A stretch of DNA of 64,000 nucleotides from Coprinellus micaceus (taxonomy: Eukaryota > Basidiomycota > Agaricomycetes > Agaricales > Psathyrellaceae): assembly GCA_951394405.1 (NCBI GenBank), contig OX596336.1, forward strand, positions 4,092,001-4,156,000. The letters are read 5' to 3'. The position numbers and the translations under genes were made by a program. The notes below the pieces were generated by a model. That model did not search any database. It was not told the origin of the DNA and saw only the letters and a list, made by a program, of their open reading frames with translations. Positions 1,920 to 38,858 of this stretch are shown here, piece after piece; position 1 is the stretch's first letter, and every line of letters begins with the position of its first letter.

Positions 1920-4900
1920 TTAGGTGACAACGCGGCGCTGGAAGCGAGGAGGGGATTTGGGAGCAGCACGCAACACATGCTCGATCTCCTTCTTGTCAAC
2001 AGCGGCTTCACGAAGCGCCTGGTTCATCTTATCAGAGATCATCGGCCAGGCTAAAATTCAATAAACTCGATGAGTTACAGGGAGTCCGTTGAGTGTCGTG
2101 GCGATGCTCACCATTGCCAGCAGTCTCCGGGGTAATATGGGTCATTTGGACAATAATCTCGCTACCCAGTAGCTCCGAGTCCAGCGTTTCAGCCGCCTTG
2201 CCAGCCGCCGATTCGGTGCGCGACACCTCTGGGAATCGTAGGCATTAGCGCAATATCAAGCATTCCGAAGTTGTGATGGGACTCACTATGGTTGACGATC
2301 GCCTCGCTGTACAAGCCCTTGAGAGTAGGGCCAACAACCTCGTTGTCTCCGTCGTCGGGGCTCGCCTCAGAACTCGCCGCCTCGGTCTCCGGAAGGCAAG
2401 ACGGACCCATGGTCTCGTAGAAGGACAAGAAGTCTTGGTGAGGCCCCATGGCAGTGATCGTCCAGGGTATGAGAGGATCGTAGAACACGGTGTCCGACCG
2501 ACCTGAGTGCCAGACACGGCGTTTCCCTTCACGAGACTGGATAGCTTGCAAGAAGCGCCGAGAAATGAACGTTTGCATCCAGGTGAGATCCTCGAGGTTG
2601 GATTTGGATGTTCCCTTGGAGAATGCAGTACGAATCCACACGTTAACACACCGTGCCTTCTTCAAGTAGATCTGCTCAAGTCGTGCGGAGCTGGCAACTT
2701 TCTCCGGCGAGGTCTGCGATCCGAAGTCTTCTATCGAACAGAACATCACGGTAATCTAGAACGGCAGTGATTAATTCTAATTTCAAAATAGAGGGGACGA
2801 TCGCGAGGCTCACTAAGGCTGTGATCATTGGCAGCAGGCCGACGAGAGGGTGTCTTTCCCTTGTTGCATTCGAACTGTCGATGTAGGGATTGCAACCCTT
2901 TTGATAAGAACGGGTGAGGGAGAGAGGGGCCGCTTCCGCGAGGTAATTGACGAGGGCGGCGATGGCGTTGTTGGTGAGGACGTTTCGGAAGAGGTAGGTG
3001 TGCCGTGGGTGTGGTACGCGACCTGCCCTGACATTGTCGTGACAGGACGAGATTGTGTCGAGGCAGATGTCCGCGCCGTCCTGAATAAATCGGACCAGCG
3101 TCAGTATTTAGCAAGACGTGTCAAGAAGGGACGATGCGTACCTGCTGGGTGTAGCATTCATGGCGATCGTGGTGGTCTCGGTGGGTTTGTTCACCGGGCT
3201 TCTCCAGGATGAGGTGGTAATTTGAGCTGGTGAGAGCAGTGTTGAGTGAGCTGTCGAGGAGCTGAACTGTTGAATGACGCTGGGCCGAAAAGTCTGGGCA
3301 GATTCTGGGGTCGAACATGCCAGTGTGAACACACCCCAGGATGCAGAGAAGGAGGCGGAAGAAGAACTCGAGCGCCTAAGTGCGATATTCATAAGAAAGA
3401 AGAATCGCGAACATGTTGCTAACTGCACTCACACGTTGCTTGACCGGAACAGCAACACGAGCCTTGTAGTAGAGGAGAGCATCTTCTGTAAAGACTGCGA
3501 AGGCCAGTAAGTAGAATGATCAAGGAGAAATCGTAAATATCATTACTCACGACCCATCCAACCGTACTTCTCAATATCCTCGAGGGACTTCTGAGAAAGG
3601 TCGTTCTGGCTTGCCAGCGACAGAAGAATTGTCGCCTCAAGAGAGTTCAGGCAGGCATCGATGAAGAGAGCGACGGTGGACGCAGTTGAGATACCTCCCC
3701 CAATGATCCTCATTGCCAACATGTTGCAAATCCACGTTGACAGGACGATGACAAGGCCGACATCAATGACATCGTCCTTCGGAAGACTCGGAGGGAACAC
3801 GCTGGGAGGCATCAGAAGAACTTGATAGTAGAAAGCTCTAAAGTTCAATATGTTCACCAGCACAAATTCCCAGCCTAACGCCTTGCGAATGGTGATAGTT
3901 GCCAAGACCTCCTCCGTCGTCTGGTCGATGACCTCCGCTTGGACGCTTTCGGTGTCGTTCACGATTGCAAACATTCGTGCGAGCTCGCCCAGGCCCAGTC
4001 GTACCACTTTCCCCGGTGATCGGTTGTAAACAGGGTTGCCTTCGCCCTCAACGTAGGCAAGACTGAACATGGGCGCTTGAACAGGTGCGGCCGTTGATTG
4101 AGACCCCTTGAATAGTGGTGTCAAGAGCACGTTAATGTGTGGACTTGAAAGAGAGCTCACCTGCGACGAGAGGTTGCTCGGGCCAGCAGTGCCTGGACCC
4201 TGGCTCGCGGGGGGGGCCACTCGAAAGTTGGCCAACACTGGCCTGTTCGCGGCAGGGGGAGTGGAGCGATGAGAAGAAGGGGCTGGTGGCTGAGATGGAG
4301 GTTGCGGTTGAGTTTCCGGTGGTGGCGCTGTGAAGTCGAAGAGGAGACTGTCCAATTGGGGGGCCAAGTCGTCGGGAGCAGGATAGGGGTGGGCGACCAA
4401 CGTGGCGAGATTGCCCAATGGAGGCGGGACTACGGAGTCCTCTCGACGGTAGATCGGCGTTCTACGTGGCGCTGGAGGGGTGTTTGCCTTTGTTGGGGGA
4501 GTGAGATGGAGCTTCGGCTCTTCAACGACACGGCGTACCTGCACAGTGCTCAAAATGGATGGCCCGGGTTGCTGCTGCTGAGGCTGTAGCCGTGGCTGTT
4601 GTTGTTGAGGATGAGATTGCGGTTGTGGTGTTTCTGAGGTGCTTGGGCCAGAGCGTTGTTGCTGCCGCTGTTGTGGTAACGACTGTGTGGAAGGGCCGGG
4701 GCCCTAAGTCACGGTGAATTAGTCGATCGACGTCGTTGAAGTCGACGCCTACTCACCTGCTGTTGGGGTGTCGATGCCCCTTGGTCCTTCTTCTTTTTCT
4801 TGCCTCGTTTCCCCTTTTGAGGAGGGGGAGGTGGTGGGGTATCCTGGCCGCCTTGGGAGAGGTCGACTCGCGTCGGCGGTAGTGACTGCGTCCTCTGTCG

Positions 4901-13810: not shown

Positions 13811-16546
13811 TTACACACTATAGGCCCTTATAGCCTCACCCCAGTGATAACCAGGTGTTATCGGGTGATCCTCGGTTTCGTGATGGGACATCTGGCGTTC
13901 AGCTACGCTCGTCAGTCTGAGGAACTGGGACTTACTTCCTAGAGGGCAAACAGGACATCTGGCGTTGAGCTATGCTCGTCGGTCTGAGGAACTGGGACTT
14001 ACTTCCTAGAGGGCAAACAGGACATCTGGCGTTGAGCTACGCTCGCCGGTCTGAGGAACTGGGACTTACGCTCTGGAGGGCAAACGGAGCGTCTGGCTTT
14101 GAGCGACGCTCGTCGGTCTGAGGAACTTGGACTTACCGTCTTGAGGGCAAACGGGGCGTCTGGCGCTGAGCTACGCTTGTCGGTCTGAGGAACTTGGACT
14201 TACATACTGGAGGGTAAACGGGGCGTCTGGCGTTGAGTGACGCTCGTCGGTTTGCGGAACGTGGACTTACGAACTGGAGGGCAAACGGGGCGTCTGGGGT
14301 TGAGCGAGGCTCGTCGGTTTGCGCAACTCGGACTTACTTCCTGGAGGGAACGCGGGGAATCCGGCGTTGAGCGACGCTCGCTGGGTTGCAGAACTTGGAC
14401 TTACTACCTGGAGGGCAAACGGGGTGTCTAGCGTTGAGCGAGGCTCGTCAGTTTTCGGAACTTGGACTTACTGCCTGGAGGGCAAATGGGGTGTCTGGCG
14501 TTGAGCGAGGCTCGTCAGTTTTCGGAACTTGGACTTACTTCCTGGAGGGCGAACGGGGCGTCTGGCGTTGAGCGAGGCTTGTCGGTTTGCGGAACTGGGA
14601 CTTACTTTCTGGAGGGAAAACAGGGCGTCTGGCGTTGAGCGACGCTCGTTGGGTTGCAGAACTTGGACTTACGAACTGGAGGGAAAACAGGGCCCCTGGC
14701 ACTGAGTGACACTCGTCAGTTTGTGGAACTTGCACTTACACTCTGCAGGGCAAACAGGGCGCGCGGTGTTGAGTGACGCTCGTCGGTTTGCAGAACTTGC
14801 ACTTACACGCTGGATGGCCCATGGAGCATCTAGCGTTGAGTGACGCTCGTCGGTTTGCAGAAATTGGACTTACGGGCTGGAGGGCAAACAGGGCCCCTGG
14901 CGTTGAGCGACGCTCGCCGGTTTGAGGAACTCGGACTTACTTGCTGGAGGGCAAACAGGGCATCTGGCGTTGAGTGACGCTCATCGGTTTGCAGAACTTG
15001 GACTTACGCGCTAGAGCGCAAACAGGGCGGCTGGCGTTGAGTGACGCTCGTCGGTTTGCGGAACTTGGACTTACGGGCTGGAGCGCAAACGGGACGGCTG
15101 GTATTGAGTAACGCTGGTCGAGTTGCGGAACTTGGACTTACACGCTGGAGCGCAAACAGGGCCCCTGGCGTTGAGTGACGCTGGTCGGTTTGCAGAACTT
15201 GGACTTACGGGCTGGAGCGCAAACGGGGCGCCTGGCGTTGAGTGGCGCTCGTCGATTGCAGAACTTTCACTTACGTACTAAACCGTACACGGGGTATCTG
15301 GCGTTGAGTGACGCTCGTTGGTTTGCAGAACTTGGACTTACTTCCTGGAGGGCATACGGGGCGCCTGGCGTTGAGCTACGCTCGTCGGCCTGAGGAACTT
15401 GGACTCACGTACTGCAGGAGATAGGGGTGAGGAAACATCATCATTTGGAGAAAACTGGCCTAATGTGTTCCACTCACCACCTGGATGACGGTCAGTGGGG
15501 TACCCCAATTTTCATTCGAGACGGAAGCCGAGTACTCACCGTCTTGCGTGCGTGGCGAAAGAATGCTTCGTCATTGTCAATATTCAAGCTTGCTGGCGAG
15601 ACCGTCCGTTTCCTAATAATTGATGAGGTGAAACGAGTATTACACCTTCGACTGAATCTCCGTGAGTATGGAATAGCTATGGTATATACGCATGCAGCAA
15701 ACAACGTACCACACTTGCCACCCTTCGTCCTCAAAAGTCCCGAGCTTTGTCTTCCCACATTTTGGGCACAGTTTTCTTACTTTTCTTAGTCCTGCATTGA
15801 GCTCCTGTTCAATCAGCATAACCATCACCAAATGCTCAGGTTTCCCAACAATACTTATCCAGGTCTCGGGGGTAACGTCTGTTCCACCCCTCGCTCCTCC
15901 TGCCCGTGCAATGCAGTAAAGCCCCCATCTCACATGGCGTTCCCCAACCTTGTCTCTGAAATGAGTAACAAGCATCTTATGTAAATCCTGCCTCATGGGT
16001 GTCAGGGGCCAGTTCCAGGCGTAAATGTATTTGCAGTGAACTCACGTCGTAGGTCGAGACGATATCCCAAGGGAGGGTGAAGGTCAACCCCAGCGCATCA
16101 GTTAAGGTCAACGCATTGGCGCTGGTGTAGCCCAGGTGGGATGGAAGGGATGTGAGTGTAGCTTTCATTTCAGCCCACATTTCAGCCCGAATTCTTCGTA
16201 CTGAAATGCGAGTTAACTGCCATGTCCTTGGCCACGATACGCCGAGGGGGGAACGCACGCTCCTCAAGGTCGGTGCCGTGTACAGTGACCATATCTCCCC
16301 CAACGTTTGTAACGTCCAAACGACCTACAGAAGCGTTGGAGCTGTTGCAGAAAAGTTGCACTCCTCTCTGGTCGGTGCTGGTCGACTGAATCGTGGCTGA
16401 AGAAGGTCAGGTTGAACGTCGAAATTCGGGGTTCAGAGGGCAGTTCGAGCGGGCTACTCACCCGTTCTCGTGTATGGATGCCAGCGGTGTGATGTGGCGG
16501 GCGTTTGAGCTCTTCTGCGGCCCCGCGCGCCTGACGCGCGGCTCAT
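13811..16546 (-). CDS. ULD_2 / zinc-ribbon protein with a 24-fold single-codon micro-exon tail
   Basis: Five ordinary exons (16546-16462, 16396-16259, 16200-16046, 15987-15710, 15651-15540; introns 58-65 nt, phases close) encode 256 residues. They show a Gly/Asn-rich stretch VGRLDVTNVGGDMVTVHGTD, a ULD_2-like ubiquitin fold (LTLTDALGLTFTLPWDIVST, then VTPETWISIVGKPEHLVMVM) and a zinc ribbon (CPKCG ... CRRCNTRF). After RHARKT each intron is followed by only three bases. Micro-exons (first plus-strand base, residue): 15478 V, 15409 Y, 15342 E, 15275 Y, 15209 P, 15142 R, 15075 P, 15008 R, 14941 Q, 14874 P, 14807 R, 14740 S, 14673 F, 14606 K, 14539 E, 14472 A, 14405 V, 14338 E, 14271 F, 14204 Y, 14137 T, 14070 S, 14003 E, 13936 E. 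The last exon is 13870-13811 (starts DHPITPGYHW, ends TAA); an alternative acceptor at 13892 adds 7 residues in the same frame. Total about 299 aa, 30 exons. Exons 1-5 are solid; the array reading is inference from splice signals. Confidence 0.72.
13872..15411. repeat. 67-bp minisatellite, about 23 copies, each an intron plus one codon
   Basis: Unit length is exactly 67 bp except one 66-bp unit. In minus orientation each unit runs GTAAGTCC, AAGTTCC, a short GAGCG/CGCTC hairpin, a CTCAAC branch-like site, a pyrimidine-rich tract, CCTCCAG, then three variable bases. Since 67 is not a multiple of 3, the array is not a conventional coding repeat; short open frames inside it (for example 14237-14571) are chance frames. 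In all units the donor GT and acceptor AG are kept: GTAAGT in 22 units and GTGAGT in the first two junctions, with acceptors CAG, TAG or AAG. Confidence 0.93.
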
Positions 16547-17776: not shown

Positions 17777-19467
17777 CATGACCTTGTCCCGAGCTCCTGG
17801 GCAAGGAAATGCCAGATGTAGCGAGTCCACCCCTCCAGGACGCCAGCACCCGTCATGACATGCAAACAATCTCTCGCAGAGTGCTATAATTGTCAAATGA
17901 GCGTCGATAGACAAAACTCGGACGGACGATGAAGTGTACTAACAGCGTCTGGACGCGTCCTCCCAGGACGGTCTATTGATAGGTAGTGGATGTTGGGGTA
18001 CGCCTCTCTGTCTGTGAGAAGCGTCTGGTTGTATGACAGTCAGCGAGCATTCAAGACACCAAGTCCGGAGAACTCACCTCAAGAATATGATTGTACTTCC
18101 ATATGTGCCGCCAGTTGTACTTCTCATATTCCATCACCATCACCTCCTTCAAAACACCCTTTGCTTTACGACACTCGTCGTGACCAGGCAGGTATGGCCG
18201 GATGACTACATTCCTGCGTCGAGAACTAGGCCCTAAGCTCAACGCCCCAGGCCTGCCAGAGACATCCATCATAACCTCCCTCTCCTTTTCCATCTCACTT
18301 GACAACCGGTCCTGAACCTCCCATGCCCACCTCCTCACGACGTGCTCGTAGAACGATACAACTCCGTCCACACCCCACCCCTCCTTGTCCACGTCCCGAT
18401 ACCCACTGAAGAGCGTCGTTGTCCAATGGCCTCCGGTGCTCACTACCATCGTTCCATAGTTCCCGTACGGAAGGGGAGCCATAAGCAAATCGAGGGCCTC
18501 TTTTGCCGGTCGCGTATGCGTCTCCTCTTTGCTGAAGAGGTGCGTTGAGGATGGGAATGACGGGTATAGTTCCTGGTGCATCATGACCAGCTCCTCCTTC
18601 GAATATAGGACGTCGACACGCCGGAATGTGACCAAAGGGGTTTTGGAGGGTGAAAACCCTGGAGGAAAGTTGATCGGATTGGGGTGCAGGGGGGATGCGA
18701 GCGGCGAAGACGGGTTCAGGTACAAGTGCTGAAATGAGCCCCGATTTGTGGTAAGCTTGACCCACGGGTTGTTATAATTCGGAGTGGCGATTACGTGCGG
18801 ATACAACAAACACGATAGGGAGAAGAAATGATTTTCGGTCACCGAATCTGCGATCCCATTAGGTCTTTTCCGGAAGACACGAATGAACGGGGATGGAGGA
18901 CTCACCGCCGATCAGCAGCCAACCTCCGTCTTGCACCAAGTGTCTAACCATCTTCTCCTTATTCCACGCCTCTAACCCTTTGCAGCTCTCCCCTGGTACC
19001 CACTCCCAACTGGTCACATTCGGAAACCGATCCCACTGTTCCGGGATATCCGCTCCTAGCGCCCAAGCTACCTCCCGCGAGCTCGCACATCCTTCGAACC
19101 CAGCAAACTTGATGGCGTCGAGAGAATCTCTCATACCGTCGGGCACCGTTCCAGCAGGCGATGGTCGGAAGACCCATGACCCATTTGAGTATCCAGCGGG
19201 AGGACACGATAGCGTTTGGCTAGAGGATCCAGCGGATAATAATCCACCCTGTTTGGCAAGTCTCAATGCATCAAACTCGGTCCGGGCGCATGGCTGGCCA
19301 GGGGCACATTCGCGAGAGGCGAAGGGAATGTATGGAGGGGATTCAACTGGGATAAGGGGGGCCCTGGGGTGGAAGAAGTGGTAGTACGCGAGCAGGAGAG
19401 ATGCCAGGATACCTCCGTAGAGTATAGCTCTGCGCCTTGAGAGTCCAGATAACCGAGAGAGCAGCAT
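17777..19467 (-). CDS. PC-esterase / PMR5-type O-acyltransferase-like protein, copy 1
   Basis: Type II membrane protein of the GDSL/SGNH acyl-esterase family seen in plant PMR5/TBL proteins and fungal Cas1p, which O-acylate polysaccharides in the Golgi. Exons 19467-18906, 18847-18078, ~18003-17944 and 17883-17777. One membrane span lies near residues 12-32 (RRAILYGGILASLLLAYYHF). The luminal part has CPPAGYSNGSWVFRP and FEGCASSREVAWALGAD. The GDS motif is split by intron 1: ...LLIGG joins ..DSVTENHFFSLSCLL to give GDSV with the nucleophile Ser. The C-terminal DxxH block reads DCLHVMTGAGVLEGW, supplying Asp and His. It has the same four-exon structure as copies 2 and 3 but is the most diverged and has the shortest exon 2. 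The start of exon 3 has several possible AG acceptors. Confidence 0.85.
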
Positions 19468-19853
19468 TTCGATTGCGCCCGTTGCCCACGCACTCCTGCT
19501 TGTAGTAGGTCAGAAGTCAGGGCGACCTGTGGGCGGAAGGTGAGGACATGGAAGTTTGGGAACAAGAGAATTACATACCAATACCGACCGAACAATAGCC
19601 ACAATTAATGGCGCCGACGTGGGCATCATGGGGACCATCTCGTTCAGCCTTCGGCATGGGAACGACAGAACGCCGATCAACATGGACCCACAACTCCGAG
19701 TCGCCTGGATTGCTATCATAGATCACTACTGGAATTGGTTTAGGGATTGTATCGGTGGCACAGAACGACTGGAAGTATTGGGGCTGCCCGGGGACTGCAA
19801 ATCCTAACCGAGACTCGAATTCGTCTGGAAATCGATCGATCATCACCCATTCA

Positions 19854-21623
19854 TTACAGCTCGCGGCTAAGATAGTGCCAAATGTAGTGGGTCCATCCCT
19901 CCAACACACCTGCGCCGGACATTAGATGAAGGCAATCGTGGCTCGAGTGCTGTTGAATCGGGAGATACGAGACCTCTTAATATGACCCTTCAATTTATTT
20001 TGACTGAACACTCACAGCATCAGGTCGCAGCCTTGCAGGGCTGTCAATCTTCAAGAAGTGCAAGCGCTTGTACGGAGCCAAAAGTGCCTTTACGACACCC
20101 TTGTCAATGCGCCTGACTGATATAGTGAGGTTGAGTGGCCACAAACCTCAAATATCCGGTTGTATTTCCATATATCCACCCAGTTCCAAGGCTGGTCCCC
20201 ACCCCAGGGATGAATCTTACCCCACGGCTCCCTATGGCTGTGACAATCGGGATGGCCAGGCAGGTAGGGGCGTAGAATGACCTGTCGGGGTGCTTTGATT
20301 GTGCGACCTGCTGGCCCTGGCGCAAGGACGGCGCCGGTATCAGAGTCCAAGGTCGACTGAACCTTCCTGGCCCACCGACCCATAACCTCTCCGAAGAAGG
20401 TCAGCACTCCATCATATCCCATCATATATCTTCCCTCAAATTTAAGCGTTGCAGGAGGAGTTAATGCCGCTGTGAGCTCCGTCTCGTTGGAAAATAGAAC
20501 TTTGGACGCGTCTCCACCAGAGTGGTGGTACCCACGGAACAGTCCTGTTGTCCAGTGCCCCGCGGTGCTCACTACCATGGCTGCGTAGTTCGCCTCGGGG
20601 AGAGGCTTCGTAAATATGTCGAGGTATACGTCAGGCGACACTGTCCACGTTAGATCTCCAGAGAACAGCTCGAAGGCAGGATTCTGCTCGTAGGTGTCTG
20701 GATGGTGTTCCCGGTGCATTCGGCTCAGCTCGTCTCTTGACCATAGGAGGTCGACCCGTCGGTAGGTGACCAGAGGTGTCTTGGCGATGTCGAACCCTGG
20801 GGGGAAGCGTAGGGGCTTGAACGTTGTCCCAGCGCTGGCGTTGCGATCTTGAAGAATGGGAGACTTGGGGTTGAGGAAAAGGTTCTGTGGCCAACCGCGA
20901 TCGAAAGTCCCGTGCCTATAATCTGGCACAGCGATGACATGTGGATAGAGAAGGCAGGAAAGAGAGAAGAAGTGGTTCTCCGTGACCGAATCTGAATATG
21001 TTAGACGCCGTAGCCAAAAACGAGCATCGCGGAGACGCACCTCCAACAAGCAACCACCCGCCCTTCTCAACCAAGTCCCTCACTGCCTCCTCCTTGTCCC
21101 ACTCTCGCAGACCTCCCGCTGATCCACACTGCCCACCGGGTACCCACTCCCACTCGTGCGCCTTCGGAAATCTATCCCACCTCTCCACAATATCCGCCCC
21201 TAGCTGCAGCCAATACTCTCTGTTGGATGCGCACCCTTCGAACCTCGCGAACTTCAGGATATCGTCATGTTTCGTCATGGTCGCCGCGGGACCAGACTCT
21301 GGCTCAATATCGAACAGTGTATCGTCCGCGTCCGTCTTGCTCAGGGGACCGGGCCTCGACCAGTAGGGCCGCCTCACCCACTGCCCGCTCGAGTACTCTC
21401 TCGGCGAACATGACCCGTTTGTGTCTTGTTTAGCGCCCGGTGTGAAGAGGTGGGATGGGAGGCTGGTGGCGAGGGCCCTACCGCGTTGTGTAGCAGTGGA
21501 GAGGAAGAGCAGGGTTCCAAGGACGAGAAAGAGGAATAGGAGTTTCCGTCTCCCCGAGCGAGTGTAATTGGAGAGGGATGCGAACCCTACACCAAGGGAC
21601 ATGTCGGCGCGCGCGGCTGCCAT
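19854..21623 (-). CDS. PC-esterase / PMR5-type O-acyltransferase-like protein, copy 2
   Basis: Exons 21623-21041, 20991-20147, 20066-20016 and 19949-19854, ending in TAA. N-terminal anchor RRKLLFLFLVLGTLLFLS, then CSPREYSSGQWVRRPYWSRP, FEGCASNREYWLQLGADI and the split GDS motif (LLVGG|DSVTENHFF). The central block includes PLVTYRRVDLLWSRDELSRM and MVVSTAGHWTTGLFRGYHH. Exon 3 encodes RLHFLKIDSPARLRPDA and exon 4 the DCLHLMSGAGVLEGWTHYIW block with the catalytic Asp/His pair. Close to copy 3 in most blocks. An ATG at 21602 is an alternative start. Expected in the Golgi, acting on wall or capsule-type glycans; the acceptor substrate cannot be read from sequence. It lies head to tail with its neighbours, 386 bp upstream of copy 1. 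Confidence 0.87.
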
Positions 21624-22236
21624 ATGGATGTCGGGGGGACGAGGCCGCGGTGCGTTGGCGGGGGCTACGTGGGGGCGAGAGTCTTCCCTTCTTAAGACTA
21701 CCCGCGCCGACAACACTAAGCCTTTTCAAGAGCGAAGAGAATAGTGGTCAATCACCTGAGAATTCTCGGAAGATGGAATGGCCTACAAATTAGGACACAT
21801 TGCTGATATCTATCTGTCAATGGAGCGGCTTATCGTCACTGTTCGCCGCCAGCGCTAGTCCAAGCAAAGTCCAAGCAAAAGTAGAAGGCGAAGATCCACC
21901 CCACCGTGCCCTTGAACTCGACCTAGAAAACTGATTGTCAGTACATACGGGTAAGTGTAACTCGTCCTTCAAACCGAGAGCTAAGCATCTGGGTCCATGT
22001 TAGGGAGGAATCTTGCGGATCCATGATTGGCCTTAGCTTCCGCTGGCTAATGGATCACGGAGAAAGATCGAAAGAACCTATGGGAGATAGAGAGGCATCG
22101 GCAAGATGTTAAAATAGAAATTAGTAGTAAGTATAGCAATTAAGTATAACGTTAGGTATCCAAGGCTTGGTTAAAGCGGCGGGAAGACGCATCGTCGCCA
22201 GTCGTGCTTAGACTGTCAGTGTTGCCTTTTCCCTCC
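21624..22236. other. intergenic between PC-esterase copies 2 and 3
   Basis: About 610 bp; must carry the copy 2 promoter and the copy 3 terminator. No gene seen. It includes an AT-rich stretch near 22100-22150. Confidence 0.5.
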
Positions 22237-24069
22237 TTACACCTCGCGTGTAAGGTAGTGCCAGATGTAGTGGGACCAGCCCTCCAGCACACCTGCGCCA
22301 GACATGATGTGTAGGCAATCCCCGCTCGCATGCTGGTGTACCGAAACGACGGGGTCAGCAACTGTCCAAGTAACGAAACGATGCCACTTACAGCATCAGG
22401 CCTTAATCTTCCCGGCCTATCGATATCCAAGAAGTGTACGTTTGCGTGCTCAGACACGATATTCTGGGAAGCACGACCCGTCAACTTCTACATTCAATAG
22501 ACGGACGGGAAGGGAATGAACTCACCTCAAACATCCTGTTATACTTCCAAATCTCTCCCCAGTTATACCAGTTCCACTTGAACGGCAGAATCTCGCTCCG
22601 GGCCTCCCGATGCGCATGGCAGTCCTCATGCCCTGGCAAGTACGCACGAACAACCACCTGCCTCGGTGCTATCGCACCCCTTCCTGGGGGATACGCCCCT
22701 CTAGGCGAGACGACAGCCCCGAACTCACTTCTATCCAACCTCTTCTGCACCTTGTCCGCCCACCTCTCCATCGCTTCCCCAAAGAACGTCAAGAGCCCAT
22801 CGTATCCCAGAACCACTTCTCCACTGCTATTACTAGGCAGCTTGGTGACGGGATTCGTAGAGCGCAGGACCTCCGTATCATTGGAGAAGAGCACCGTGGA
22901 TCCGTCCCCCTCCTCTTGATGATACCCATGGAACAACCCCGTCGTCCAATGCCCCGCCGTACTAACCACCATTGCCGCATAGTTCGCCTCAGGCATCGGC
23001 TTCGTAAAGATATCCAAGTACTCATCCGGAGACATCGTCCACACCGCCTCGTCACCAAACAGCCGGAACGCCGGATTCGCAGCATAGATCTCTGGGTGGA
23101 GCTCCTTATGCATCACGAGCAGCTCTTCCTTCTGCCAAAGAATGTCGACGCGGCGGAAGGTGACGAGAGGGGTGTTGGCGGGGTCGAAGCCAATAGGGAA
23201 TCGGACGGGCCTGCGGGAGGTGTTTTGGAACCCGGCTTTATGTTTCGTCATGCGGATGGTGCCGTCGTCTTGGAAGAGAGGAGATTCGGGGTTGAGGTAG
23301 AGATGTTGGGGCCAGGCGCGGTCGAAGCTGCCCTGGTGTTTCGTATAGTCTGGTGTGGCGATAACGTGAGGGTAGAGAAGACACGATAGCGAGAAGAAGT
23401 GGTTCTCCGTAACGGAATCTGCACCCAGGACATTAGCATCTAACTAGCCAAGTCTCCAGATTGAACAAACCTACCTCCAATGAGGAGCCACCCACCCCGC
23501 TCAACCAGATCCCTCACAACCTCATGAACAACCCACTCCCTCAAACCACCCTCCCCCTCTCCACACCGTCCTCCAGGAACCCACTCCCACTCCAACGCCC
23601 CCGGAAACCTATCCCACTGCTCCTCCCTATCCGCCGCAAGATGCCACCAAAACTCCCTCGAACTCGCGCACCCCCCAAACCTTGCAAAGTCCAAAATATC
23701 TTCAGGCTTCGTCATACCCACATCCTTCGTGCCCTCCGTATGCACTGAACCGTTTTTGAACCTCGGATCGTCTATGTCGGTCTTGGATAGCGGACCAGGT
23801 CTCGACCAGTACGGTCTCCGAATCCACTCCCCGCTCGCATACTCCCCCGGGGAACACACGCTCAGCGGTTTTCCACCATTAAACCCAAACTTGGAGGAGA
23901 ATGATTCAGGGAGTCGGCTCATCGTCCATTCGTACGCGGTGGATACGTAGAAGAGGAAGATGACGCATGAGACGGTGATTACGAGGAAGAGGGATTTGCG
24001 TGTCCGGAAACGGCTGAGGAGCGGTTGTATGAAGCTTGGGAGGCTCCAGAGGGTGTGTAGCGCCGACAT
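22237..24069 (-). CDS. PC-esterase / PMR5-type O-acyltransferase-like protein, copy 3
   Basis: Exons 24069-23475, 23418-22526, 22463-22392 and 22332-22237, ending in TAA; ATG at 24069. The N-terminal anchor is RKSLFLVITVSCVIFLFYVS. It is followed by CSPGEYASGEWIRRPYWSRP, FGGCASSREFWWHLAADREE, the split GDS motif (LLIGG|DSVTENHFF), PLVTFRRVDILWQKEELLVM, MVVSTAGHWTTGLFHGYHQ, then EHANVHFLDIDRPGRLRPDA and DCLHIMSGAGVLEGWSHYIW. Catalytic Ser, Asp and His candidates are all present, so it looks functional. Together with copies 1 and 2 it forms a tandem array in one orientation with identical intron positions, which points to local gene duplication. The CPS1-type synthase 1.8 kb upstream supports a shared role in extracellular glycan production (inference). 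Confidence 0.88.
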
Positions 24070-34071: not shown

Positions 34072-37000
34072 CTAAGTGCCATACATATCATCGTGCTGGA
34101 GGAGCTCCTGGTCGTCCATGCGGTCAAAGTAATCCTCTTCTTGGTCGTCGTCGTCGTCGTCATCACTGTCTTCGTCACCGTCGCTGTGCCTCACCGACTC
34201 GTCGTCGTCGCCATCGTCGTCGTCATCATCGCCGTCATCCCCTTCGCAATTCTGCGCCTCTCGCTCTTGAAGTGGGGAGTGCGATACCCGTCTACCGTCT
34301 CCAAGGTTCGACGTCGAAGGTTGTTCGTTGACATTGGTTCTCAGTTCCGAAGGCTGACCGGGGTTCTGGTGTATCGATGTCACCGACGCAGAGTGTGGGG
34401 TTGAGGTTGGCCCTGGCTTGAAGACGAGGCAATGGTCAAAGTCGCGGGGAATCTTGGGCACTCGTGGAGGAGGAAACGCATCGGTGAGCATATAAGCATG
34501 ACCAATTGACATGCCATACTGATATCGCATATAAGCATGACCAATTGACATGCCATACTGATATCGCATATAAGCATGACCAATTGACATGCCATACTGA
34601 TATCGCATAAATGCGTCGCGGTCGACAAACCTGTGGCAGAAATAGAAATGGATCAACGAGTTGTATCGATGAACCGGAGACCAAGAAACGAACCTGTTGA
34701 TATAGTATGCGCTCCACGCAACGTTCTCCTTTCCGGCGAACTTGGACTTTGGAAGAGGTGTTTTCGTTTTAGATGAGAATTGGGGGATGAGGTGGATTCC
34801 TCGGATGATGTTATCTGGGTCCGCGAAGTTGACCGAGGGCCTGAGATGTGGGGAGTGGAGGGCGACCCGATCGAGAGAGAACTCGGACTTTGATGGAAGG
34901 AACTGATACCAGTTTACCCAAACGACGTCAAGTCGGTGGTAGGCGGTACTGGGCTTCAGGCCATCTGGGAGGTGACCCACAAAGCAGACGTCGGCGTGGT
35001 AAATCCCCAAGATCTTCCCATACAGGTAAGGGTGCTTGGTGAGGCGCGAGGCGGAGGTATACAGAGGGTTGAGGAACATTACATTGCACTGAGCTGTGTC
35101 GACGTGGATGATATCTTGATCTCGACGAATGTCATATGTGGTGTAGTTCACCTTGAGTAGCTGGTGGCTGTAGATTTGGCCATCCTTGATTACCACATGT
35201 GGCCATTGGTTTGCAGCGGCAGCTACGACGGCCTTGGCGCATCCCAGTTTCTCCAAAATACGTGGCAGTAGATGCCTCTTCAGTTTCTCGTTGAAACCCT
35301 ATGATTTTTGTTGACGGGATGGTACAGCGCAGGTAAGTAGGAGGACTAAGTGATAGGAGAGGGTCGGAACTCGGGAACGTACCACAAGGTATGGGTCGCG
35401 AACTCCCCAATCGGACCTGTCGATTAGGGCATTGAGGGTGATCGGGGAGTTCCGGTTCTCGCCCATGATATAATGGCGCTCCAATTCGAGAAGGCTTTCC
35501 CCCAAGCCGACTCGAGGAGCAGAAGTCCCTTCGGACCCAGTGTTGAGTCTTGCGCGAATGGCAGAAAGACGGGCCTGCCGACGTTCTATGCGGGTAAGCT
35601 GTGTCTCATAGTCCTTCCTGTCGGTGCGAGGGTACCATGATTTCGGTACTCTGTGGTACAGCTCCCCCTGTGTGTGAGCAGCATCAGTGACGTCTGATGG
35701 GTGGAAGGATAGGCTACCCACAGTCTGAGTCGAAAACGAGTCTGTTGTCCCGACTCTCCGAATAGTCGAACTGTAGTCGCCAAGAAAATGAAATTTGATC
35801 GTAAAAACGTCCAGCGTGGCCGGTCGTCGAGTAGAACCAGCCGTCGCATTTCCCGCCCCACTGGCAGGTGGCTTAGTCCTTTTCGCCCTTGCATCGGCTT
35901 CCTTCTTGGTCTCCTTCGTTGGAATTTTGGAGCACGTATCCCTGCAAAAAGTCCTCATTTTAGCCCCAAGTTGGACCGTCGTATAATCCAGAAGTTCGAG
36001 AGTGTGATCGTTATGGAGGCGCAACTTCGCTAGCGCGTGCCACTGAGCGCAAATGAAGAGAAGTTCCATAAGCCTAGCATTGTGCTCTTCTGGTAGTAGC
36101 CCTTCAAAAGTGGGTATTGCGCACTAGATGTCATATGAGCGGCAGGCACATAAATCAGTATCGTTCGAGGATTGTCTCACCTGCAAAAGATCCTCGTAGT
36201 CTCTGGCAGCCTTTCGCTTCATTTCCGAAACATTAAGCGGGAACTTGCGGATCGTGTCTCGAGCGAAGGGAGGAACAGATCTATATCTGTAGGGTGTATC
36301 AATAGGAAGTCCCGACTCAAGGTATTGATGTCTCACCGCGAATTCAATTCAGCGCTCAAGGTAGCAGCCATTCGACCACGGCTTAAAGATTCTAGTAAAC
36401 GAATGAGATGCACATAAAGTTTCTTCCAAACCCCAATCTCGAATTCGTGCAAGATGTCCACAACTAGGGCGCCTAGAATGTCAAACGGGAGATGTGCTTC
36501 CGAAATGATTGAACTGAACGCCGTCTTCGATGATATTTAGCACGCCACCTCCCGATTACAGGAGTCAAAAAGGGTAGAGACGAACCTGTACGGGGGCAAG
36601 GCACTGCGGCCCCAAAATGCATTCCAGCTTGTCGTTACTGAGGGCATAGCCGGCTCGAATGAGATCCTGAGCTTTTACAGCCACCTTCCGTTGCTCGGAA
36701 GATATCCGCAGTTGGTTTATTCGCTCTGTGTCCGAAGGGGCGCCCAATTTCCATAAATCCGCCTTCCTCACCAAACAACGATGACATGGGCGGCCACCAT
36801 TGTTGCGAATTCCACCCACGAGGGTCCTAAATTGTATGCCAAAAGGTAAGCGGCGCTCCTGAGGGTCTAAAAGAACGAGTACTTTTCTGGATAATCACAA
36901 GAGTAAGTGAGAATTCTTGGGAAGAAACACCTCTCCTTGTCATCGGGGCACATGACAACGATACCGTACTTCATTGCGTCGATAAATTCCGCGTTTAAAA

Positions 37001-38858
37001 GAACGGACCATTGCTTGTGGAAAAGCTCCCGGGCCAAGTACTTGAATAGGGCCCTCGCCGGGAGCCTTCCTTTGTTTTGCTCCTTGAAGAAGTCACCTAA
37101 CCTGTCTGGAAGCTGAATGTGCGAATCAGCGGGGAGCGCGTGAAGGACGAGGAGAAGGAGAGCTTACCTTGATGAAATACGCTACCTGCTGCCCCAATTT
37201 AGCGGATGGTTCGCCTCGCTGGTGCTTGGGCTCATTGCCAAAGAACATGTAGCAGGGCCATAGACTGGCCCCCCCAAACGCGGTCAACTGCGTCGCGTCC
37301 GACCAGAACATTAACGCAACAACTACCCTCTCGAGTCCTTCGTCCCTCTTTGTTCGGGGCTGCCTTTGTAGTGCCTCGTGCGCCTCGCGGAATGCGCGGG
37401 AGGTGTAAAGCTCCCCGTAAAGCTTGACCTCTGGTGAACGACCTGTCGGTTTCCATGATGCCTCGTATGGATAATAGTGAAAATTTGGGGTGTCTTCGGC
37501 ACTAGAAACCTTTTCCTTGATGACGGAGACGAGGGATCGATAATGAAATTCGCCGACAGAGAACGGCTTGATCCCTCGCTGCGGCATGCGATTGTGGAAG
37601 GGTATGTCGATGGATATTGTTTCCGTCTTCCAACCGTCGTCGTGGATCCATGAACCCGAGTCTTTCGGAAGATCCTCCTTGTTTGCGCCCAATGCGTTGA
37701 AAGCGGCCCTCCAATCGACGCAAGTTGCGTCAGGAAGGGAGAACTGCGGGTCTTTGAGGATCGAAACCAGGTTTTGGAAGTCAAGAAGTGATTTCCGGCT
37801 AGACTGCCAGTACCACTCCGCCAGAAGGAAGGCCGTACGACTGGAAAACGGCCCAAAGCCCAAGGATCCACGAGTACCATTGGGGTTCTGGCGGTCCCCA
37901 GTCTCCGGGAATCCGCGAGTATCATTGGAGTTCCGGCGGTCACCAGCCTCAGTGGATTCGCGAGTATCATTTGGGTTCCGGCTGTCCCCAGCCTCGTCGG
38001 GCCTTTTTGGGTTGCGCTTGAAGACGAGTTGGTCTGGATCATGCGTTGGCTTGAAACCTTCAGGGAGGGTGTATCGCCGAACAATCCCAAGTAGGTTCCG
38101 CTTCGTTTCGAGAAGGTAGAGTCTTGCGGTTTCGGCGTTATCCTGTGTTGCGGATTCCCCCCGACCTTCTTCAGACGGGAGCGTCAGTCGCTCCACCCTT
38201 TCTAAATTCCAGTATTTCAAGTGCATACCTCCGAGCGTGGGTAGGAGCGCGAGCACGGGGGTTGTAGCTGCGTGGTTATTGAATGCAAGCAAGCTGGACG
38301 AAGCTGCATGCGAAACAGCGTCTTGGAGGGCGGAAGGGGTTATGGGTAAGCTGTCGTGCTCATAGCGGGCGGGGAGGTGAATCGGCCGTTTCCCCTTCCT
38401 GACGCCAATGGGGATGTGGAGGTCAGCAGGTTCCACCTGGATGTGATTTGAGTGTGAAATGTGAGCGCGATACAGCTGCAGGGCTTACGGGTGGTTCGGG
38501 TGCATGGCGGTTAGGCGTCTGATGCGTAGGACATGAGCCATTGGAGCATTCAGAATTGAGAAGATACAAGAGACCAACTTACATCATCATCTTCCTGTGG
38601 CCTCGGAGAGGAGCCTTCCCCAGTTTCTTCGTCCGTCTCGCGTTTCCTCCTTTTCCTCTTCCTGCTCTCCCAATGTGCTTTCGATTCTTCGAGCAGGTCC
38701 GTGAGATTTCGTTTGGCGAGGACGCACGCTGAGCGTTCATGCTTCTGCAAGAAATGAAGCACGGAATACTCCTTACCGCAGTGGTCACAACAGTAAGAGG
38801 AGCCGTGGTGTTCATGAACCTGAACGTGCCGAGGGTCAGAGTAGATGATTTGGCTCAT
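34072..38858 (-). CDS. Plavaka transposase, apparently intact, ten exons
   Basis: Transposase of a Plavaka (CACTA-like) DNA transposon. Exons: 38858-38583, 38436-37168, 37112-36883, 36826-36586, 36524-36337, 36286-36181, 36123-35722, 35667-35383, 35298-34694 and 34630-34072. They join without a phase error into 1386 aa. Landmarks in order: C2H2 finger CCDHCGKEYSVLHFLQKHERS; the DLHIPIGVRKGKRP entry; VVVALMFWSDATQLTAFGGA and YMFFGNEPKHQRGEP; LLNAEFIDAMKYGIVVMCPD; GRPCHRCLVRK; GALVVDILHEFEIGVW; SVPPFARDTIRKFPLNVSEM; LMELLFICAQWHALAKLRLH; VNYTTYDIRRDQDIIHVDTA; IIRGIHLIPQF. The tail is strongly acidic (Asp-rich). A threefold 39-bp in-frame repeat sits in the last exon. No stop or frameshift was found, so it may be active, but the ends of the element and a target-site duplication were not found. 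Confidence 0.9.
34489..34605 (-). repeat. 39-bp tandem repeat, three copies, in frame in the transposase
   Basis: Three essentially identical 39-bp units (34489-34527, 34528-34566, 34567-34605) encode 13-residue repeats containing RYQYGMSIGHAY. The length keeps the reading frame. Near-identity implies a recent expansion. Confidence 0.93.

Follow-up and report, generated by a model that had tools for sequence, protein, structure and literature searches.

Micro-exon genes (MEGs) of schistosomes and tapeworms carry runs of consecutive exons whose lengths are divisible by three, form multi-copy variable families, and can add or drop single residues without a frameshift (PMC7653826, PMC10526429). 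In schistosomes these exons are mostly 15 bp long (range 6-81, or 3-81 according to the abstract), lie between introns of 0.1-5 kb and encode secreted proteins (PMC10526429). Isolated exons of minimal size have also been described, namely a single 1-nt exon with read support in Fusarium CYP621A (PMC12940212) and a 3-bp exon in Drosophila homothorax (PMC7392893). Furthermore, long Drosophila introns can be spliced stepwise through ratchet points, at which an acceptor lies directly at a donor (PMC8605326). The WD, ANK and TPR repeats of fungal NLRs are near-identical, with suggested concerted evolution, a few hypervariable positions under positive selection, and length polymorphism (PMC4986451). 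Here we describe a gene on the minus strand of a 64,000-nucleotide stretch of the Coprinellus micaceus genome (contig OX596336.1, called C3 below, positions 4,092,001 to 4,156,000; hereafter the window), in which exons for a ULD_2 domain and a zinc ribbon are followed by a 67-bp tandem repeat that reads as 24 consecutive exons of one codon each. Its family carries such arrays at four loci on C3 (A, the window copy, and B, C and D) and at six on contig C10 (C10a-f). The parts of the window copy are as follows:

16046..16180, minus strand: core exon, start of ULD_2 (open frame and Pfam ULD_2, PF22893)
15710..15987, minus strand: core exon, remainder of ULD_2 and first half of the zinc ribbon (CPKCG); shared by homologues in the same genome and in Ephemerocybe and Coprinellus
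15540..15651, minus strand: core exon, CRRC half of the zinc ribbon, ending FFRHARKT in phase 0 (open frame)
13936..15539, minus strand: array of 24 triplets (VYEYPRPRQPRSFKEAVEFYTSEE) between GT...AG stretches of 59-66 nt, period 67 (sequence, repeat finding and unit statistics)
15481..15539, minus strand: first intron of the array, 59 nt, beyond the 67-bp repeat (sequence)
15478..15480, minus strand: predicted one-codon exon no. 1, GTG, V (sequence)
13936..13938, minus strand: predicted one-codon exon no. 24, GAA, E (sequence)
13811..13870 (or 13891-13811), minus strand: possible last exon of the window copy, ending in TAA (sequence)

Tandem Repeats Finder placed the repeat at 13891-15405, with a period of 67, 22.6 copies and 83% matches. 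An initial annotation of the window had proposed the anatomy given here, and most of its details were recovered: the 24 one-codon units lie on the minus strand at the positions proposed, the 23 inner introns measure 64 nt in 21 cases, 63 nt in one and 66 nt in one, the 24 acceptors comprise 19 CAG, four TAG and one AAG, and stop codons are absent from the 24 triplets. The donors had been called perfect GTAAGT, which holds for 22 of 25, while the remaining three are GTGAGT; the donor after the last core exon, which starts at 15539, is GTGAGT. Across the 21 full-length units, the donor bases G1, T2, G5 and T6 and the acceptor AG showed no departures, against a mean of 15.1 in six random interior columns, and none of 5000 draws was as low as 0. 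Chance occurrence of AG and GT in a satellite was rejected on the basis of this column test and of the genome-wide pattern searches with reversed controls described below.

The arrays resemble MEGs in being frame-neutral short exons in a multi-copy, variable family. They differ in that all array exons consist of one codon, the introns of about 64-67 nt themselves make up a tandem repeat, and the protein is of the ULD_2/zinc-ribbon type. A structural MEG definition (at least 7 exons, at least half of them micro-exons of <70 nt and divisible by three, in runs of at least 4; PMC7653826) describes the predicted models of B, C10a-f and the window copy, with 51, 13-17 and 24 one-codon exons, respectively; D, with 6, may fall short of it. 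Shared ancestry with the flatworm proteins was not apparent, as ULD_2 was the only Pfam domain above cut-off and the named homologues were those of Ephemerocybe and Coprinellus. The isolated exons of 1-3 nt are likewise too short for internal signals and are spliced in real genes, a fungal one included, but they stand singly, whereas here runs of 6-51 with variable content are predicted. Recursive splicing is also stepwise, with the acceptor close to the donor; here, in contrast, each step would retain three bases, and the introns are short. A recursive splice site has no bases between acceptor and donor, and the sites described here, with three, fall outside that definition. The repeat of a fungal NLR is a stretch of protein tens of residues long, whereas in the present arrays the repeat is an intron and one residue is coded per unit. 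The proteins joined from the resolved exons of A, B and C10a gave no NACHT or NB-ARC match, and to that extent they fall outside the fungal NLRs. Among other candidate parallels, no micro-exon array was found in the accessible text on the SP7-like effectors of Rhizophagus (PMC11333574), and aphid bicycle genes were considered without result in the portions available. No paper on runs of one-codon exons was found in the accessible part of the open-licence literature, and minisatellite-like runs of this kind appear to be new.

The genome (50.3 Mb, 17 contigs) was searched for further arrays, and ten loci of one gene family were found, with 6-51 triplets each. The single odd gene suggested by the window was therefore not borne out, and the arrays are a property of a gene family. 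All four C3 arrays have a 67-bp unit and carry 6-51 triplets. Besides the window copy, array DNA matched three loci of the same contig, none more than about 100 kb away:

C3:4066574-4069689: locus B, 51 one-codon exons
C3:4006867-4008364: locus C, 23 one-codon exons
C3:4086767-4087086: locus D, 6 one-codon exons

The six C10 arrays have a 69-70-bp unit, 13-17 one-codon exons and mostly GTATGT as donor; in a protein search with the core, the C10 family members were 32-42% identical over the matched stretch. ULD_2/zinc-ribbon exons precede eight of the ten arrays. The ULD_2 domain scored 57.2 bits in A (E 1.9e-15, residues 21-105 of the joined exons), 63.7 in B and 52.9 in C10a, all above the curated cut-off of 24.5, and the zinc ribbons were sub-threshold in Pfam. 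The unit interiors of the C3 and C10 clades aligned no better than shuffles (P 0.17-0.50 in three of three comparisons), and no homology between the arrays of the two clades was seen in these alignments. In one C10 array (C10:2076000-2083000 reversed, ~3858), a CT repeat has lengthened one intron to 127 nt, and this expansion may hide a lost unit.

Two successive AG-NNN-GTRAGT steps were matched 84 times genome-wide, with 81 matches in the C3 cluster and 3 elsewhere, and two successive AG-NNN-GTATGT steps 41 times, every one of them in the C10 cluster; neither pattern had any match in its reversed control. Because the matches cluster there, the arrays appear to be confined to the ULD_2 gene family, within reach of the two patterns. 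One two-step match each was seen at C1:5547932, C3:8386 and C6:808, which share the same sequence start. Two of them, C3:8386 and C6:808, lie near contig starts, and the three perhaps represent a subtelomeric gene family. A protein-search match on C2 showed no AG-NNN-donor step by the pattern used. In searches with the unit DNA itself, which scored the best candidates, skipped very common words and were non-exhaustive, the 67-bp unit matched only at the four C3 loci, and the 69-70-bp unit only at the six C10 loci and one decayed piece on C11. Introner families consist of near-identical introns dispersed at unrelated genes; spread of such a mobile intron was rejected, since within this non-exhaustive search the units were seen only at these loci. 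A sequencing artefact was rejected on account of the ten separate loci. No relatives were found in viral contigs.

Within the arrays, the three bases between acceptor and donor vary far more than their surroundings. Eight of the ten arrays had enough units for a diversity test, and in these the diversity of the triplets was 0.49-0.74, compared with 0.10-0.28 in the interior and 0.02-0.13 at the donor; no interior window of three columns reached the triplet diversity in any of the eight. At locus B, 47 pairs of sites differ at no more than 3 of 128 flanking intron bases, and nevertheless their triplets differ in 24 of the 47, as in a pair with CGA and TTG and one flanking intron difference. Triplet pairs that differ by a single base are synonymous in 47 of 413 cases (0.114), against an expectation of 0.212. 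Deviations in intron length are not multiples of 3 in 38 of 53 cases, while the array exon is constant at 3 nt. The fixed donor and acceptor bases, on the other hand, showed 0, 1 and 1 departures in A, B and C versus 15 to 19 in six random interior columns, and 0 in C10e versus 8.0 for random interior columns.

Codon content was assessed on 194 triplets from the ten arrays. This set leaves out the core-exon ends listed first (one per locus for A, B and C), two entries from the 9-nt exons at the start of C, the first donor of every C10 chain, which is arbitrary, and chain ends extended too far (one in C10b and two in C10c). None of the 194 is a stop codon, whereas column shuffles within arrays gave 14.1 stops on average and 0 of 5000 shuffles gave none; with each codon counted once per array, 0 stops stand against 7.8 expected, again with 0 of 5000 shuffles giving none. 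Furthermore, the NAA:NAG ratio is 44:2 in the ten arrays; the corresponding figure for core exons of eight of the genes (A, B and C10a-f) is 80:120 (Fisher P 4e-13), and counting once per array gives 24:2 for the arrays (P 2e-7). As controls, NGA:NGG did not shift between arrays and core exons (P 1.0), and NCA:NCG (11:9 versus 87:22, P 0.024) and NTA:NTG (1:18 versus 42:98, P 0.026) shifted mildly toward G. It is as if a second AG acceptor directly before the donor were shunned. Triplets of the form GTN are also scarce, with 3 of 194 in the arrays and 94 of 1243 in the core exons (P 6e-4).

At nine of the ten loci, all but the window copy, the array leads in frame to a conserved tail that contains SRF or a close variant and closes with a stop. 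Up to that stop, the tails read RAISHDQQPGPSRFHVLEE in B, ..QQPGPSRFQVLED in C and PDDQQPGPSKFQVLED in D. In these three loci the exon after the last triplet ends QQPGPS(R/K), a phase-1 intron lies in the next codon, and (F)(H/Q)VLE(E/D) and the stop follow. The tails of C10a-f end ..QEESRFEELP before the stop, with a phase-1 intron in the F codon, a position common to the tails of both clades.

The unit anatomy, the lack of stops, the avoidance of NAG, the near-fixed splice sites beside variable triplets and the nine in-frame tails are properties of the sequence itself. With the nine further arrays, they uphold the initial annotation in that the repeat is not filler, and they fit one-codon exons. 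We put a probability of roughly 0.78 on the reading that stepwise splicing adds one residue per repeat to a hypervariable segment in the C-terminal region of a ULD_2/zinc-ribbon protein. Short fungal introns are recognised across the intron. By such intron definition, one short intron would be removed, the growing exon would come to lie against the next donor, GTAAGT or GTATGT, and the cycle would start again, each step amounting to recursive splicing with a three-base remainder. Gain or loss of whole units would alter the length of the peptide without shifting the frame, exchange between units would keep the introns alike, and selection for change would push the codons apart. The product would be a ULD_2/zinc-ribbon protein whose variable segment spans 13 to 51 residues and precedes a fixed tail. 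Retention of a single array intron is predicted to cause an early stop for 14 of 15 introns in C10a, 12 of 14 in C10b, 9 of 13 in C10c, 11 of 14 in C10e, 11 of 14 in C10f and 30 of 51 in B; the core used for B was a placeholder, and the last intron counted for C10b and C10c came from an over-extended chain.

The segment might serve as a recognition surface, for example in nonself or parasite recognition. This is the least certain step and a guess, prompted by analogy with fungal NLR repeats, since the segment likewise diversifies in a multi-copy family with broken copies. We lean toward a broader view in which the family would constitute a codon-by-codon peptide generator, that is, a minisatellite of intron units at ten loci, with two unrelated units, built on an old ULD_2 design, with codons outpacing introns and a segment for recognition. 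Repeat turnover and codon change would then write new peptides residue by residue, with the frame never broken. If confirmed by RNA, whole protein segments would be assembled from one-codon exons, as many as 51 consecutively. Tails of this kind may then also escape present gene finders; past the FRH motif, the C-termini annotated for the Ephemerocybe and Coprinellus homologues are seen by eye to vary between genes.

Several observations weigh against the stepwise reading. The splice-site column test was weak in C10a (P 0.052) and C10b (P 0.091). The chains of the C10 clade were built by a script that needed AG, three bases and a fair donor, so that their AG diversity of 0 and their exon length are fixed by construction. 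The near-identical arrays C10e and C10f differ at 1 of 84 donor, 1 of 42 acceptor, 1 of 45 triplet and 12 of 808 interior positions, and this pair is too alike to show faster change of the triplets. Units within an array are related by descent and their counts are non-independent, for which reason the once-per-array counts are given alongside; counted in this way, the GTN deficit was 3 versus 6.3 expected (P 0.08). Avoidance extends beyond stops, as TTA, CTA and TCA are depleted as well (1 versus 12.7 expected), possibly from rare codon use, and one of the 194 triplets (AAA in C) stands behind a lost acceptor (CAC). No amphipathic pattern was found in the array peptides (smallest shuffle P 0.116 in 18 tests). 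In addition, array and core do not always go together: C and D showed no ULD_2 exons in the protein search, no array was seen at a core-only copy (E, C3:3984439) or its repeat on C13, and a family member at C9:1879689 is also without an array.

Some of these loci show further peculiarities. Positions 98-6098 of C3:3983500-3991500 and 1-6001 of C13:982500-988500 are 100% identical over at least 6001 bp, a stretch that includes the ULD_2 core and no array. By eye, locus C has the flank just before this stretch but not the core exons, as though these had moved. At the C9 locus (C9:1875000-1881500 reversed, ~1290-2200), an apparent 12-nt exon (VAKS) was seen by eye in the C-terminal part, at the position that the array takes in other members.

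Other explanations account for parts of these observations. The unit sites could be spliced with the peptide irrelevant; the run of introns would then ratchet or time splicing or enhance expression, leaving the three bases as a by-product. In A, B and C the splice sites do rank with the best conserved columns, and direct joining of core to tail is also in frame in the gene models. A by-product should drift no faster than its surroundings, however, and the triplets outvary every interior three-column window in eight arrays, stops are absent, and synonymous single-base differences fall below expectation; we therefore consider this account unlikely. Far less credible still is a non-coding minisatellite within one long intron. 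Minisatellites homogenise, which could keep GT and AG in a tandem repeat with this degree of matching, but homogenisation fails to explain fixed columns beside three highly variable bases, and it leaves the avoidance of stops and NAG, the two unrelated unit families and the in-frame tails unexplained. The initial annotation had also raised a very large isoform space, which skipping of any subset of exons would open within one individual, and this could be the purpose of the array. All array exons are 3 nt long and in phase 0, and any subset keeps the frame. As a purpose it seems doubtful to us, given that NAG triplets, which would ease skipping by a 3-nt acceptor shift, are avoided and that donors are near consensus in most arrays. 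The avoidance of NAG points to accurate inclusion rather than skipping, and the variation visible in the genome lies between units and between genes.

The window copy departs from the other nine at its 3' end. The short last exon with a stop that had been proposed for it does exist as an in-frame exon to 13811, but the unit after triplet 24 is broken, and both acceptors in frame with that stop, found by eye at 13872-13871 (GAG, intron of 65 nt) and 13893-13892 (CAG, intron of 44 nt), are weak. No counterpart of this possible exon was seen in the sister loci, and it is likely a product of rearrangement. No exact words of the B, C and D tail exons occur in the window, and genome matches to the tail DNA of B were confined to B, C and D. 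When a repeat or transposon was sought in place of the tail of A, the only matches were the locus itself and a 78-bp piece on C9. The window copy may thus be a 3'-truncated member without the family tail. A stronger version of this view, in which the one-codon exons are real across the family and the window copy is a dying member with no normal tail, agrees with the missing tail and the broken last unit; we regard it as tentative and somewhat below even odds, because the core is open, all 25 donors and 24 acceptors are intact, and an exon with a stop is present in frame at 13870-13811.

The relatives give some indication of the age of the tail. A midpoint-rooted tree of 22 core sequences (10 from this genome and 12 found proteins) consisted of two groups, each with 100/100 support. 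One group contained C10a-f and four C. micaceus proteins, and the other A, B, E, the C9 gene, six Ephemerocybe angulata proteins, one C. micaceus protein and one C. aureogranulatus protein. Named homologues were found only in Ephemerocybe and Coprinellus, which we take to be Psathyrellaceae, and a literature search found no paper on the E. angulata genome. Two of the E. angulata proteins, grouping with A and B, end SRFEELAD and SRFEELDG. SRFEEL tails are thus present in both groups, and the tail is likely older than their split. The units do not align, and the array may be equally old or may have arisen twice.

Decay is concentrated in a few copies. In C10d the core contains a TGA and 6 of 17 donors deviate from consensus, compared with 0-3 in the other nine arrays. 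Locus C lacks ULD_2 exons and has 3 of 26 donors off consensus (one of them GTAGAT) and one lost acceptor, and D, also without a core, has 1 of 6. Among the copies with open cores, donors off consensus number 0 of 25 in A, 3 of 52 in B (one GC donor), 0 of 16 in C10a, 0 of 14 in C10b, 1 of 13 in C10c, 1 of 15 in C10e and 2 of 15 in C10f. Random breakage of splice sites in related strains had been named as a sign against the arrays. In the sister loci, which we used in place of strains, breakage was not random and fell mostly in the damaged copies (C10d, C and the C11 relic), although open copies also have 0 to 3 sites off consensus. The C11 relic (C11:88500-96500, ~3135-3660; C11:91695) is a decayed C10-type array with GTACGT donors and broken acceptors; no ULD_2 match was found on C11 in the genome protein search with the core.

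Elsewhere in the window, a Plavaka transposase fragment at 37126-38436 on the minus strand (PF18759, E 1.5e-9) marks a mobile element about 20 kb from gene A. Three similar open reading frames lie in a row at 18051-23251 on the minus strand and have the motifs YLPGH and IWKYN in common, with no Pfam match at E 0.01. Finally, a 39-bp unit is repeated 3.1 times with 100% identity at 34488-34609, within an open reading frame.

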